DNA from: Planctomycetota bacterium
Lineage (GTDB): Bacteria; Planctomycetota; Phycisphaerae; Phycisphaerales; UBA1924
NCBI GenBank assembly: GCA_039819165.1
Contig: JBCBSM010000001.1
Span: forward strand, 2,170,001-2,234,000
Length of the DNA: 64,000 nucleotides
Reading direction: 5' to 3'
Part shown: positions 27,696 through 32,473 of the stretch, in pieces
Numbering within the stretch: position 1 is the stretch's first letter
How the letters are laid out: each line of letters opens with the position of its first letter
The notes under the pieces: generated by a model
Databases searched by the model: none
The model's input: only the letters and a program-made list of their open reading frames with translations
What the model was told of the DNA's origin: nothing
Program-made: the position numbers and the translations under genes

Positions 27696-29714
27696 GTGAC
27701 GACCACCCCCACGCCACCCCGGGATCGTACATTGGCCGCGCCAAATGGCCGGGCAACGCAAGCACACGCCGGTTCGCCACCCTGGACCACCGCCGACGCC
27801 GCCAACCTCTACGGCGTGCATCGCTGGGGCGCACCATACTTCGTTATCGGTCCAGACGGCCGCATGCGTGTGCGGCCCCGCGGCGCTGGCGGCCCGAGCC
27901 TGGACCTGATCGAGATCGTCGACGGGCTGCGGGCCCGTGGGCTGGAGGCGCCGGTGCTGCTTCGCTTCGACGACATCGTGGACCACCGGCTGGCGGCGCT
28001 GCGGGAGGCCTTCGATGCGGCGATCGCCGACGAGGAGTACCTCGGCGCGTACCAGGCGGTCTATCCCATCAAGGTCAACCAGCAGCGATCGGTGTGCGAG
28101 CACATCCGCGATGCCGCGCAGCGGGAGGGCTTCGGCCTCGAGGCGGGCAGCAAGCCCGAACTGCTGGCGGTGCTGGCACTAACCGCCGACGCCACGGGCG
28201 TGCCCATCGTGTGCAACGGCTTCAAGGACGCGGAGTACATCGAGACGGTGATCCTGGCCAGCCGCATCCGCGAGCGGATCTATCCGATCGTCGAGCGACC
28301 GGGCGACCTCGACCTCATCGTGCAATACGCCCGCGAGCACGGCGTGCAGCCGCGCATCGGCATCCGGATCAAGCCTGCGGCGAAGGGCGTGGGCCGCTGG
28401 CAGAGCTCGGGCGGCGAGACGGCCAAGTTCGGGCTGACGGCCGCCCAGCTGCTCGAGGCCGTCGAGACGCTCCGCGAGGCCGAGATGCTCGGCTGCCTGC
28501 AGGTGGTGCACTTCCACATCGGCAGCCAGGTCAGCGACATCCTGAGCTTCAAGGCCGCGCTCACCGAGCTGGCGTGGACCTACGCCGAGCTGCGGCGGCT
28601 GGGCGCGGGCGTGGAGATCATCAACGTCGGCGGCGGGCTGGGCATCGACTACGACGGCAGCCGCAGCGCCAGCGACAGCAGCGTGAACTACGACCTCAGC
28701 GAGTACGCCGCCGACGTCGTCTATCGCATCAAGGCGGTGTGCGACGAGGCGGGCCAGCCGCACCCAGGCATCTTCAGCGAGAGCGGCCGCGCGATGGTGG
28801 CCCACGGCAGCGTGCTGGTCGTCGACGCGCTGGCCAGCAGCGGGCTGCCCAGGCCCGTCGACGCGCCGGCGGTGCGGGCACGGCTCGGCGCCATGGACGA
28901 CCCGCCCCGCCCGGTCGTCGATCTGCTGGACGCCTACGAGCGGATGCGGAGCGGACGCATCGCCGAGATCAGCCACGACGCGCTGGCGGCCCGCGACGAG
29001 GCCATCAGCCTGTTCCAGTACGGCCATTTGAGCCTCGACATGCGGGCCACCGTCGAGCGGCTCTTCAAGGCGCTCGCCGCCGGCGTGCTGCAGCGGCCCG
29101 ACGCCATCGACGAGGACGGCCTGCTCATCGACGCCGTGCGGCCGCTGGCGGGCGTCGTCCGCGAAACGTATTACTGCAACTTCAGCATGTTCCAGTCGAT
29201 GCCCGACGCGTGGGCCATCGACCAGCTCTTCCCGGTATGCCCGCTGCGGCGGCTCGACGAGCGGCCCACGCGGCGGGGCATCCTGGCCGACATGACCTGC
29301 GACAGCGACGGCGCCATCGTCCGCTTTCCATCCGCGGAGGGAGAGGACTACGACGAGGCGCTCACGCTGCACGACGTCCGCGCCGGCGAGCCGTACGAGC
29401 TGGGCGTCTTCCTGGTCGGGGCCTACCAGGAGGTGCTCGGTGACCTGCACAACCTCTTCGGCGACACGCACGCGGTGCACATCGTGGTGGACGAGGCCGC
29501 CAACAACTCGGGCTGGGCGATCGACGAGGTCGTCGAGGGCGACACCGTCCGCGACGTCCTGGGCTATCTCCAGTACGACGACGCCGAGCTGCGCCGCGCG
29601 ATGCGGCGCGACGTCGAGCGGGCCGTCCGCGCCGGGAACCTGAGCGTGGCCGACGGCACCACGCTGATGCACTTCTACGAGGACGGCCTCGCGGGCTACA
29701 CCTACCTCGAATAG
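27696..29714 (+). CDS. speA: Biosynthetic arginine decarboxylase
   Basis: 672 residues, within the usual 630-660 plus a short N-terminal extension. Makes agmatine from arginine for polyamine synthesis. The PLP lysine is in YPIKVNQQ, and LEAGSKPELL, HFHIGSQVSDI, INVGGGLGIDYDG and YCNFSMFQSMPD are all family hallmarks. Two starts are possible, TTG 27690 and GTG 27696. The GTG is preferred because TACGCT lies 5 nt upstream, as at other leaderless-type starts. Agmatine-processing genes (speB, aguA) are not in the window. thiL follows 26 nt after the stop. Confidence 0.95.
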   Translation: MTTTPTPPRDRTLAAPNGRATQAHAGSPPWTTADAANLYGVHRWGAPYFVIGPDGRMRVRPRGAGGPSLDLIEIVDGLRARGLEAPVLLRFDDIVDHRLAALREAFDAAIADEEYLGAYQAVYPIKVNQQRSVCEHIRDAAQREGFGLEAGSKPELLAVLALTADATGVPIVCNGFKDAEYIETVILASRIRERIYPIVERPGDLDLIVQYAREHGVQPRIGIRIKPAAKGVGRWQSSGGETAKFGLTAAQLLEAVETLREAEMLGCLQVVHFHIGSQVSDILSFKAALTELAWTYAELRRLGAGVEIINVGGGLGIDYDGSRSASDSSVNYDLSEYAADVVYRIKAVCDEAGQPHPGIFSESGRAMVAHGSVLVVDALASSGLPRPVDAPAVRARLGAMDDPPRPVVDLLDAYERMRSGRIAEISHDALAARDEAISLFQYGHLSLDMRATVERLFKALAAGVLQRPDAIDEDGLLIDAVRPLAGVVRETYYCNFSMFQSMPDAWAIDQLFPVCPLRRLDERPTRRGILADMTCDSDGAIVRFPSAEGEDYDEALTLHDVRAGEPYELGVFLVGAYQEVLGDLHNLFGDTHAVHIVVDEAANNSGWAIDEVVEGDTVRDVLGYLQYDDAELRRAMRRDVERAVRAGNLSVADGTTLMHFYEDGLAGYTYLE

Positions 29715-29740: not shown

Positions 29741-30631
29741 ATGCGGGAACGCGAGCTGCTCCAACGCATCGCCGAACGCAGCGCCGACCTGGGCGCGGCC
29801 TTTCCGGGCGTGCTCGTGGGCCCCGGGGACGACTGCGCCGTGCTCGCGGGAGACCCGCGGCCGCTGCTGCTGACCGTCGACCACCTGGTGCAGGGGCGCC
29901 ACTTCGACGATGCGCTCCCGCTCGATCTCGTCGGCCGCAAGGCGGTGGCGCGCTCGGTGAGCGACATCGCCGCGATGGCCGGCCGGCCCGCCTGGGCGCT
30001 CGCCACCGCGCTGCTGCCCGCGGGCTGGCCGCACGCCGACGAGTTGTTCGGACACATGGCCGACGCGGCACGGGCCTTCGGCTGCCCGCTCGTGGGCGGC
30101 GACGTCGCCAGCCACGCCGGTGACGGCCCGCTCACGCTGACCGTGACGGCGGGCGGCCACCCGGTCGGCGAGCGGCCGGTGCTGCGGAGCGGCGCGAACG
30201 CCGGAGACTCCGTCTACGCCACCGGTCGCTTCGGTGGCTCGCCGGTGGCGCACCGGCACGCTCGCTTCGATCCACGCGTCGAGGAAGCCGCCGCCCTCGC
30301 CGGCCTCGCGACCGCGATGATCGACGCCTCCGATGGCCTCGGCGTCGACGCCGGCCGCATCGCCGAGGCGTCGGGCGCAACCATCGAACTGGACGCCGCC
30401 ACGATCCCGGTGCATCCCGATGCCCGCGACCTCGACGCGGCGCTCGGCGACGGCGAGGACTACGAGCTGGTCTTCACGGCGCCCGATGCAGCAACCGTGC
30501 CCGAGGCCATCTTCGGCACGCCGATCACCCGCATCGGGTTGGTGGTGGAGCGCGGCGAGCACGCGTGCGTCGTGGTCCTGCCCGGCGGCGCGCGGCGGAA
30601 CGCGAGCGATCTAGGCTTCGAGCATGGCTAA
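29741..30631 (+). CDS. thiL: Thiamine-monophosphate kinase
   Basis: 296 residues. Phosphorylates thiamine monophosphate to the active diphosphate. Motifs of the PurM-like fold are in order: GPGDDCAVL, TVDHLVQGRHF, SDIAAMAG, VGGDVASH, MIDASDGLGVD and GEDYELVF. Length is near the usual 310-330. It follows speA by 26 nt, and the tsaE start lies inside its 3' end. The association thiL-tsaE is not an obvious pathway link. No TPP riboswitch was seen upstream; the gap to speA is too short for one. Confidence 0.95.
   Translation: MRERELLQRIAERSADLGAAFPGVLVGPGDDCAVLAGDPRPLLLTVDHLVQGRHFDDALPLDLVGRKAVARSVSDIAAMAGRPAWALATALLPAGWPHADELFGHMADAARAFGCPLVGGDVASHAGDGPLTLTVTAGGHPVGERPVLRSGANAGDSVYATGRFGGSPVAHRHARFDPRVEEAAALAGLATAMIDASDGLGVDAGRIAEASGATIELDAATIPVHPDARDLDAALGDGEDYELVFTAPDAATVPEAIFGTPITRIGLVVERGEHACVVVLPGGARRNASDLGFEHG
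30612..30617 (+). promoter_or_regulatory. TAGGCT -10-like element of tsaE
   Basis: TAGGCT lies inside the 3' end of thiL and 6 nt before the ATG at 30624, with no Shine-Dalgarno. It may start a leaderless tsaE transcript independent of thiL. Confidence 0.45.
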
Positions 30632-31250
30632 CGCCGGCATCCAGACGCTCGCCACCGCGTCGGCGGAGGAGACCGAGGCCGTCGGCCGACGACTGGCCGC
30701 CGGGCTGCGGGGCGGCGCCGTGCTCGCGCTCGAGGGCGACCTGGGCGCCGGCAAGACCACGCTGGTGCGGGGCCTCGCCGCGGGCCTGGGGCTCGATCCC
30801 GCCGCCGTCTCGAGCCCGACCTTCGTGCTGGTGCAGGAGTACGCCGGCGACGACGCGCGACTCGGCTTGGCGCACATCGACGCGTACCGGCTGTCCGGCC
30901 CGGACGAGCTCGAGGGCCTCGACTGGTCGCGGCTGCTGGCCGACGACGGCGTCGCGATCGTCGTCGAGTGGGCGTCCCGCGTCGCCGCCGCCCTGCCGGC
31001 ATCCCGCACCACCACGGTCACGCTCGCCGCCACGGGCGAGTCTGCCCGCTCGATCACCATCGAGCCGCCGCGGACCTGGACGACCTGCCCCGCTACGGGC
31101 ATCCGCGTGCCCCCGGACGCGCCCAGCTGGCCCTTCGCCAGCGAGCGGGCGCGGCTGGCCGACCTCTACGGCTGGTTCGCGGGCACCCACACGATCTCCA
31201 GGCCCATCGAGGAGGGCGACGACCCCTCGGAGTTTCCGCCCGAGGGCTGA
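30624..31250 (+). CDS. tsaE: TsaE ATPase fused to a YacG-like domain with a lost zinc site
   Basis: 208 residues. The first 150 are TsaE, the ATPase of the t6A tRNA-modification complex: P-loop GDLGAGKTTLV (38-48), SSPTFVLVQEY, HIDAYRL (84-90) and VEWASR. The last 55 residues align with YacG, a DNA gyrase inhibitor: CPATG for CPxCG, then PFASERARLADLYGW for PFCSxRCxxxDLgxW, then an acidic tail. Three of the four zinc cysteines are replaced (Thr 158, Ala 172, Ala 176); only Cys 155 remains. The fusion is my reading from motifs. It overlaps thiL by 8 bp and precedes exbB. Confidence 0.9.
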   Translation: MANAGIQTLATASAEETEAVGRRLAAGLRGGAVLALEGDLGAGKTTLVRGLAAGLGLDPAAVSSPTFVLVQEYAGDDARLGLAHIDAYRLSGPDELEGLDWSRLLADDGVAIVVEWASRVAAALPASRTTTVTLAATGESARSITIEPPRTWTTCPATGIRVPPDAPSWPFASERARLADLYGWFAGTHTISRPIEEGDDPSEFPPEG

Positions 31251-31274: not shown

Positions 31275-32039
31275 ATGATCGCCCGGACCCCCGTATCTCT
31301 TCTCGCACAGTCGTCGGACGACCCACCGCTGACGGCGTGGTCGCTGTTCCTGCAATCGCTGGACGTGTTCACGGTGGTGCTGGTGGCGGGGTCGATCGCC
31401 GCTGCCGCCCTGTTCTACCGCTGCGTCGCCGACGTGCGGCGGACCCGGATGCTGCCGCCCGAGGACCTCGGCCGGCTCGACGCGCTGACCGCCACCCGCC
31501 CGCTGTCGGAGATCGCCGCCTACGTGCGGGGGCGGGACGCCTTCCCGGCCATCGTGCTACGGGTGATGCTGGAGAGCGCGTACACGTCGGCGTCGGCGCG
31601 GGAGGCCGCCCAGACCGCCGCCGACGCCGAGTGCGCCCGCTGGCTCCGCCGCATCGAGCCGCTCTCGACCATCGGCAACCTTGCTCCGCTCGTCGGGCTG
31701 GCGGGCACGGTCTGGGGCATGATCCTCGCGTTCACCACCATCGGCGTCGAGGGTGGCACCGCGGGGCCCGCCGAGCTGTCGCTGGGCATCAGCAAGGCGC
31801 TCTTCCACACGCTGCTAGGGCTGTGCCTCGCGGTGCCGACGCTGCTGGCCTATGGCTGGCTGCGGGGACGGACCGATCGGCTGTGCGACGAGGCGCTGGC
31901 GATCTCGGCGACCTACGTCGAGCGCGTGGCCGCGCGGCTCGACATGCCTCCCGCAGACGACGACGCGCCCGAGCAGCCGGCCGTCGCGGAGCCGGGCGCG
32001 GCCGAACCCGACGACGAGCCGCGGGCCGGGGACGGCTAA
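31275..32039 (+). CDS. exbB: MotA/TolQ/ExbB proton-channel protein
   Basis: 254 residues. Three transmembrane helices: about 29-47 (LDVFTVVLVAGSIAAAALF), 133-158 (PLSTIGNLAPLVGLAGTVWG) and 175-195. The block between helices 2 and 3 (GLAGTVWGMILAFTTI) is the most conserved part of the ExbB/TolQ family. These proteins form a pentameric stator around two ExbD subunits and use the proton motive force to drive envelope machines. Two exbD-like genes follow directly, with overlapping stops and starts. No tonB, tolA or receptor is near, so the driven partner is unknown. The C-terminus is acidic and Pro-rich. Confidence 0.88.
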   Translation: MIARTPVSLLAQSSDDPPLTAWSLFLQSLDVFTVVLVAGSIAAAALFYRCVADVRRTRMLPPEDLGRLDALTATRPLSEIAAYVRGRDAFPAIVLRVMLESAYTSASAREAAQTAADAECARWLRRIEPLSTIGNLAPLVGLAGTVWGMILAFTTIGVEGGTAGPAELSLGISKALFHTLLGLCLAVPTLLAYGWLRGRTDRLCDEALAISATYVERVAARLDMPPADDDAPEQPAVAEPGAAEPDDEPRAGDG

Positions 32040-32473
32040 TGCGACGCCGGCGGCGGGTCCGGGAGAACGGCGCGGGCCATCTCAACGTCACGCCGATGAT
32101 CGACGTGGTGATGTGCCTGATCATCTTCTACCTGCTCGTGGGCCAGCTGGCCTCGCAGCAGCGGAGCCAGCTGGTGCTGCCCCGCTCGAGCTCGGGCGAT
32201 CCCGAGGCCGACGCCGCGGGCGTCTTCCTCAACGTGCGGACCGAGGGCCCGAACCTGACGATCGACGCCGACGGCGTGCCGCTCGATCGCGGCGAGCTCC
32301 CCAGCGTGCTTCGCGGCGTGCGGGTCGTGCACCTCCGCGCCGATGCGGCCCTGCCCTACGCCGCCCTCGCCCCCGTGCTGGCCGACCTGCGCGACGCGGG
32401 CGTCGACGCCGTCCGGGTCGCCACCGAACGCACGGGCTCGCCCACCGGCCCCAGGCTGCGGGTGGCGCCGTGA
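32039..32473 (+). CDS. exbD: ExbD/TolR-family protein 1
   Basis: 144 residues. ATG 32039 overlaps the exbB stop (TAATG). A basic N-terminus leads to the single transmembrane helix with the proton-carrying Asp: LNVTPMIDVVMCLIIFYLL (Asp 22). The periplasmic domain has the usual strand-helix pattern (LTIDADGVPLDRGEL, VRVVHLRADAALPYAALAPV). It is first of two paralogues; the second begins inside its stop codon. Different ExbD copies with one ExbB could form a heterodimeric rotor, which is inference. Confidence 0.87.
   Translation: MRRRRRVRENGAGHLNVTPMIDVVMCLIIFYLLVGQLASQQRSQLVLPRSSSGDPEADAAGVFLNVRTEGPNLTIDADGVPLDRGELPSVLRGVRVVHLRADAALPYAALAPVLADLRDAGVDAVRVATERTGSPTGPRLRVAP

Follow-up and report, generated by a model that had tools for sequence, protein, structure and literature searches.

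The window analysed here, a stretch of 64,000 nucleotides, encodes a TsaE protein that continues past its ATPase domain into a short C-terminal module resembling the gyrase inhibitor YacG, with most of the zinc ligands missing. This raises the question of whether the module is a YacG by descent and, if so, whether it is a relic, has been put to another use or would still act on gyrase in a zinc-free form. We found no description of a TsaE-YacG fusion or of a zinc-less YacG in the open-licence literature (automatically built domain databases may include it), and the available part of the t6A review PMC9654439 names no TsaE fusion. The layout of the fused gene and of its upstream neighbour is given in Table 1.

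Table 1. Features of the fused tsaE-yacG gene and of the gene preceding it (positions in the window).
Feature	Position	Strand	Remarks
ThiL-like AIR-synthase-family gene, upstream of tsaE	29741..30631	+	Pfam AIRS and AIRS_C
Fused TsaE-YacG-like gene	30624..31250	+	208 aa, stop codon included in the coordinates; ATG start, no internal stop
TsaE domain, residues 12-143	30657..31052	+	P-loop GDLGAGKTT, SPTF, HIDAYR and EW motifs
Short linker, residues 144-154, with P149 and W152	31053..31085	+	
YacG-like domain, residues 155-200, zinc-less	31086..31223	+	Pfam and profile matches, predicted fold
C155, equivalent to E. coli C9, sole zinc cysteine retained	31086..31088	+	Present in 54/55 zinc-less domains
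T158, replacing the second zinc cysteine (E. coli C12)	31095..31097	+	Thr in 87% and Ser in 10% of 55 zinc-less domains
A172, replacing the third zinc cysteine (E. coli C28)	31137..31139	+	Ala in 60% of 55; others Ser, Ile, Phe, Val, His, Arg
A176, replacing the fourth zinc cysteine (E. coli C32)	31149..31151	+	Ala in 89% of 55; Cys in one genome, G301
W184, equivalent to E. coli YacG W40, the tryptophan entering GyrB	31173..31175	+	Trp in 55/55 zinc-less and 90/90 zinc-type domains (the pattern used as anchor accepted either Trp or Arg at this position; every domain had the anchor)
Acidic C-terminal tail from R193 (RPIEEGDDPSEFPPEG)	31200..31247	+	Acidic fraction and Arg conservation

The first-pass annotation had assigned residues 1-150 to TsaE on account of a clear P-loop, and this was borne out. 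The Pfam TsaE model matched residues 12-143 with 119.8 bits (E 9.1e-35, cut-off 26.6) and NCBIfam TIGR00150 scored 97.5 bits against a cut-off of 60.1. The protein therefore has the full domain of the TsaE/YjeE/YdiB family (PF02367, TIGR00150), the ATPase of the t6A complex, including P-loop, SPTF and EW motifs, and differs from it in additionally bearing the C-terminal YacG-like module. The P-loop GDLGAGKT and the pair E115 W116 are present in the domain sequence, and G43 K44 T45, S64 P65 T66 and E115 W116 are invariant across 48 zinc-less alignment rows. In structural comparison, the TsaE part gave a Z of 21.8 to Bacillus subtilis YdiB (5np9). A TsaD is encoded in the same genome (TIGR03723, 357 bits versus a cut-off of 296).

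Residues 153-208 had been read as YacG-like, and the Pfam YacG model did match residues 155-200, so that the failure to match by which this assignment could have fallen did not occur. The match scored 21.7 bits within the whole protein (E 1.7e-4, below the cut-off of 25.5) and 25.5 bits with the tail alone (E 1.1e-5, equal to the cut-off); the best NCBIfam YacG model gave 22 bits and E 9e-5, far under its cut-off of 79. The alignment to E. coli K-12 YacG (NC_000913.3), from which the equivalences in Table 1 were taken, paired C9, C12, C28, C32 and W40 with C155, T158, A172, A176 and W184, respectively. This agrees with the earlier reading that three of the four zinc cysteines had become Thr, Ala and Ala: the pattern CxxC...CxxxC is incomplete, with C155 alone remaining.

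The modest single-sequence scores could suggest that an unrelated C-terminal extension resembles YacG by chance. Such an explanation is scarcely credible, since zinc-type fusions carry all four cysteines at the equivalent position of this gene and a profile built from 32 zinc-less tails matched the solved E. coli YacG structures 4TMA and 1LV3 at E 2e-5; beyond E. coli YacG, nothing in the PDB fell below E 0.19. The same profile aligned with a zinc-type YacG of the order at 99.1% probability. Sequence comparison thus supports a true TsaE-YacG fusion by descent. The window's domain is a YacG by descent, though not a canonical YacG, because it does not have the zinc feature. It shares with YacG (PF03884, gyrase inhibitor, E. 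coli 1LV3/4TMA) detectable homology, the DLxxW tryptophan, the acidic tail and, as predicted here, the hairpin-helix core. It differs from E. coli YacG in the absence of three of the four zinc cysteines and in its fusion to TsaE; E. coli yacG, unlike that of the window, adjoins zapD and coaE.

We have also searched the window's genome, an assembly of 35 contigs with a listed completeness of 100%, with the Pfam YacG model. The fused gene was the single place matched at E ≤ 0.001, and the separate yacG that the first-pass annotation had proposed to look for was not found at this threshold. Relaxing it to E ≤ 1 added one YacG match, 15 positions long.

The structure of the fused protein was predicted with AlphaFold2 from the 48 zinc-less rows only (mean pLDDT 92.1, pTM 0.78). 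Block means of pLDDT were 88-96 over residues 151-190, where a helix (174-185) is preceded by short strand pairs, and 78 and 66 over the acidic tail. A zinc-type control (G066, 41 rows) showed an identical order of elements in the YacG region and a longer linker helix. In a Foldseek search, nine chains of known TsaE structures came first, followed at rank 10 by gyrase-bound YacG 4TMA, with a probability of 1.00, a TM of 0.66 by target and 37% identity, but with E 0.066 and an rmsd of 6.4. The VIA-align rows listed were uninformative on the YacG part, since they covered nearly residues 1-151 alone. The zinc-less module is predicted to keep the hairpin-helix fold of 4TMA/1LV3. In this it would be like the treble-clef domains without zinc, for instance the U-box and YlxR-like domains, which according to the available part of PMC4999995 retain their fold despite missing some zinc ligands; YacG is not among the zinc-losing treble clefs named in that part.

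With regard to the neighbourhood, the end of the gene upstream, an AIRS-family member which we take to be ThiL, shares 8 bases with the start of tsaE. A homologue of it lies upstream of tsaE in 139/168 genomes and in every family (loci cut at ~1.5 kb). The overlap and this recurrence suggest that the thiL-like gene and tsaE form a conserved transcription unit. Downstream of the fused gene, ExbB/TolQ and ExbD genes occupy positions 31275-32473 of the window; an ExbB/TolQ homologue was seen 3' of tsaE in 30/55 zinc-less, 7/23 other family and 0/90 outside-family genomes, again with loci cut at ~1.5 kb. No tandem repeats were found in the window between positions 28000 and 34000.

We have then sorted 168 genomes of the order, from 178 with TsaE, by the state of their tsaE locus. 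The two genes were fused in 103, a separate yacG lay downstream in 42 (the YacG match being 60-779 bases past the TsaE domain in these adjacent cases) and none was nearby in 23, which gives fusion or adjacency in 145/168 genomes. The first-pass annotation had pointed to the homologues in close relatives, and these do share the architecture: within the window's own family (f1, 78 genomes with tsaE), 61 genomes have the fusion, 14 a separate yacG downstream and 3 neither, and in the window's genus a weak YacG match was present in 6/6 sampled genomes. Beyond what had been annotated, the fusion extends to five further families (42 genomes, each with the Cys3 and Cys4 of the zinc type), with zinc loss confined to part of f1 in the samples. 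These are f2 (8 fused), f3 (7 fused, 28 with a separate yacG), f4 (20 fused, and 20 without YacG nearby, a class that takes in one 5.7-bit match and one locus, G367, ended by its contig), f5 (6 fused) and f28 (1 fused). The zinc-type fusions of these families, together with 6 in f1, resemble the window's protein in architecture, mostly with a thiL-like gene upstream, and differ from it by their intact zinc cysteines.

In a class-wide sample, a YacG match was obtained in 219/298 genomes at E ≤ 0.01. At none of 30 YacG loci from other orders of the class did tsaE lie within ~1.5 kb of yacG, nor did it lie near yacG at 19 further loci of the phylum outside the order. In the genomes sampled, linkage of tsaE to yacG is therefore peculiar to this order. 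The 20 f4 genomes with TsaE and without YacG nearby indicate that the link is dispensable there. Some of the f4 genomes (such as G125, G177, G197, G228 and G294) have TsaE and no genome-wide YacG match at E ≤ 0.01; YacG has apparently been lost completely in part of f4.

The 145 YacG domains fell into 90 with the third and fourth zinc cysteines and 55 without. All 55 zinc-less domains are fused and all belong to f1, where they make up 55 of the 61 fused YacGs; the four cysteines are intact in 14/14 separate YacGs of this family. Outside f1, 70/70 domains were zinc-type, and the five of these that failed the Cys2 pattern do have Cys2, two of them in a wider-spaced pair. The zinc-less tail profile matched 243/392 genomes of the phylum at E ≤ 0.001, and none of the 19 profile matches inspected outside the order was zinc-less, all 19 having Cys3 and Cys4. 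Among 61 family genomes, of which 39 carry the zinc-less form, none had two YacG matches over the cut-off, so that in these 39 the module stands without a normal YacG as backup.

The loss of the cysteines followed a regular course in the 55 domains, Cys2 being replaced by Thr or Ser, Cys3 by Ala or mostly small or hydrophobic residues and Cys4 by Ala. PF, DL and the I-S-R motif of the tail were conserved at similar rates in zinc-less and zinc-type YacG. The tail arginine (R193 position) was found in 90% of the former and 88% of the latter, with acidic fractions after it of 0.40 and 0.45, respectively. The residue following DL was Gly in 64% of the zinc-type domains and Tyr, His or Asn in ~80% of the zinc-less ones.

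Selection was estimated from mean pN/pS within the window's genus (Nei-Gojobori counts, 6 genomes, 15 non-independent pairs). Taken descriptively, the values were 0.44 for TsaE and 0.31 for the zinc-less YacG core; the acidic tail, at 0.53, is looser and evolves faster than the core. The core is under purifying selection within the genus and, at 0.31, is not decaying. A functionless YacG relic in decay, to which the loss of three zinc ligands and the whole-protein Pfam score under threshold might point, is thus very unlikely: purifying selection is at least as strong as on TsaE, the replacement residues are regular, the tryptophan is invariant in 55 genomes and the fold is confidently predicted. 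With the key tryptophan and the acidic tail kept and selection acting, the module is probably still functional in a zinc-free form and not a relic.

The history of the two changes was followed on a GyrB tree of 78 genomes and E. coli (quick method, reading frames chosen by motif). One f1 branch of 17 genomes (support 98) contains 12 separate zinc YacGs, 3 fused zinc YacGs and 2 genomes without YacG; another of 47 (support 100) contains 43 zinc-less genomes, 3 with fused zinc YacG and 1 without YacG. Since the branch of 47 stands beside f4, f5 and f28 (support 89), the f1 genomes do not form a single clade here. Zinc loss took 3 changes, or 2 with E. coli and the YacG-lacking genomes left uncounted, and the fused versus separate state at least 5 changes on the best tree; fusion and separation of tsaE and yacG have changed several times. 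A single clade of all zinc-less rows was mildly rejected (AU test, p 0.037), owing to the zinc-type fusions G119, G321 and G406, which nest among the zinc-less genomes. This nesting could stem from independent losses, from re-acquisition or from gene transfer. Zinc was lost once or a few times, possibly with regain, and G301, which has Cys1 and Cys4 only, may represent an intermediate stage. The association of zinc loss with fusion has no statistical force on the tree, which offers only 2 independent contrasts. A quick tree built from the 144 columns of the TsaE domain was set aside, being too weakly resolved (84/162 inner branches open; 11 zinc-loss changes).

Changes as frequent as those between fused and separate genes are what easy stop-codon loss would give, and they fit an account in which the two domains are independent, the fusion is a by-product of a thiL-tsaE-yacG cluster and the zinc loss reflects general zinc saving. 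The ribosomal proteins offer some support to the latter, a cysteine-poor L31 being the sole L31 in 19/19 sampled f1 genomes and L36 being cysteine-poor in 6/12 sampled genomes with zinc-less YacG. However, the zinc-type YacG branch of f1 also has the cysteine-poor L31, two genomes of other families (G155 of f4 and G346 of f5) keep a zinc-type YacG despite cysteine-poor L31 and L36, and the 14 separate f1 YacGs all kept their cysteines. L36 was cysteine-poor in 0/7 genomes of the other f1 branch, and L31 was not cysteine-poor in G066 (f2) and G143 (f3). As cysteine-poor L31 and L36 occur alongside zinc-type YacG, zinc saving alone is no predictor of the zinc loss in YacG, and genome-wide zinc saving was rejected as its cause, the states of L31 and L36 not tracking YacG. 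A zinc-saving tendency exists but does not alone explain the loss, and we consider the by-product account as a whole unlikely.

In the window's genus, 4/4 genomes had only cysteine-poor forms of L36 (loci L406, L404, L405 and L403) and L31 (loci L433, L440, L439 and L434). Such forms suggest zinc-sparing ribosomes in the genus and family.

What a zinc-free YacG could do on gyrase can be judged from E. coli. In the available sections of PMC10886550, the zinc-finger domain of E. coli YacG contacts GyrB via an inserted tryptophan, the C-terminal region reaches across GyrB and GyrA and keeps DNA from binding, and YacG is able to protect gyrase from poisons. The earlier statement that YacG binds GyrB through its C-terminal region holds for the tail and has to be widened, given that the zinc-finger tryptophan makes contact with GyrB too. 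We consider it most likely, with moderate confidence, that the module is a zinc-independent YacG, tethered to the t6A ATPase TsaE and putatively still binding GyrB.

Alternatively, the module could have been repurposed, no longer binding gyrase and serving TsaE instead, for example as a TsaB-TsaD surface or an ATPase cap. The zinc loss was found in fused proteins only, TsaD is present in the genome and the junction residues P149 and W152, each at least 90% conserved in the 48 zinc-less rows, are typical of zinc-less proteins: PxxW by the TsaE end was seen in 45/55 of these, 3/20 family zinc-type proteins, 2/3 family genomes without YacG and 0/90 other genomes. Against this, the residues retained are the gyrase-linked ones (the W40 equivalent and the acidic tail), at rates as in zinc-type YacG, and TsaE is kept without a nearby YacG in the 20 f4 genomes. 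We therefore regard repurposing as rather unlikely, while giving it some weight. The junction PxxW was also considered as a substitute for zinc and dropped; several separate TsaEs also have a Trp at about that position, and hence we make no claim from this motif.

Under the gyrase-binding reading, the simplest account would have a neighbouring yacG joined to tsaE, yielding a C-terminal YacG module, this being the direction that we infer. In part of f1, the module lost three of its four zinc ligands and kept the tryptophan that contacts GyrB, the acidic tail and, as predicted, the hairpin-helix. It would dock on GyrB through W184 without zinc, and the tail would block DNA entry as in E. coli YacG. 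TsaE would meanwhile perform its usual ATPase work in t6A formation with TsaD and TsaB, and the tether would set the YacG dose equal to the TsaE dose. A further proposal, that the nucleotide state of TsaE or its TsaB-TsaD occupancy gates the zinc-free YacG on gyrase, so that tRNA modification and, through it, the translational state directly set supercoiling, seems quite unlikely to us; if true, it would provide a gyrase brake indifferent to zinc supply and thiol oxidation.

In six families of one order, the fusion brings t6A modification and DNA supercoiling, otherwise unlinked, together in one polypeptide, so that a functional link between them can be tested directly. A natural series running from the separate zinc YacG through the fused zinc form to the fused zinc-less one also bears on the role of zinc in a gyrase inhibitor, and with it one can ask whether gyrase binding requires zinc.

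On the gyrase side, the available part of PMC5507300 names YacG residue 40 (as F40) and GyrB F513. This pocket residue of GyrB was found in 43/43 zinc-less genomes, and also in 6/7 genomes classed as without YacG (3/3 within the family, 3/4 outside). F513 was therefore discarded as a test of binding, being kept in nearly all genomes whatever their YacG state. Residue 40 itself, given as F40 in that part of PMC5507300, is Trp in the K-12 sequence.
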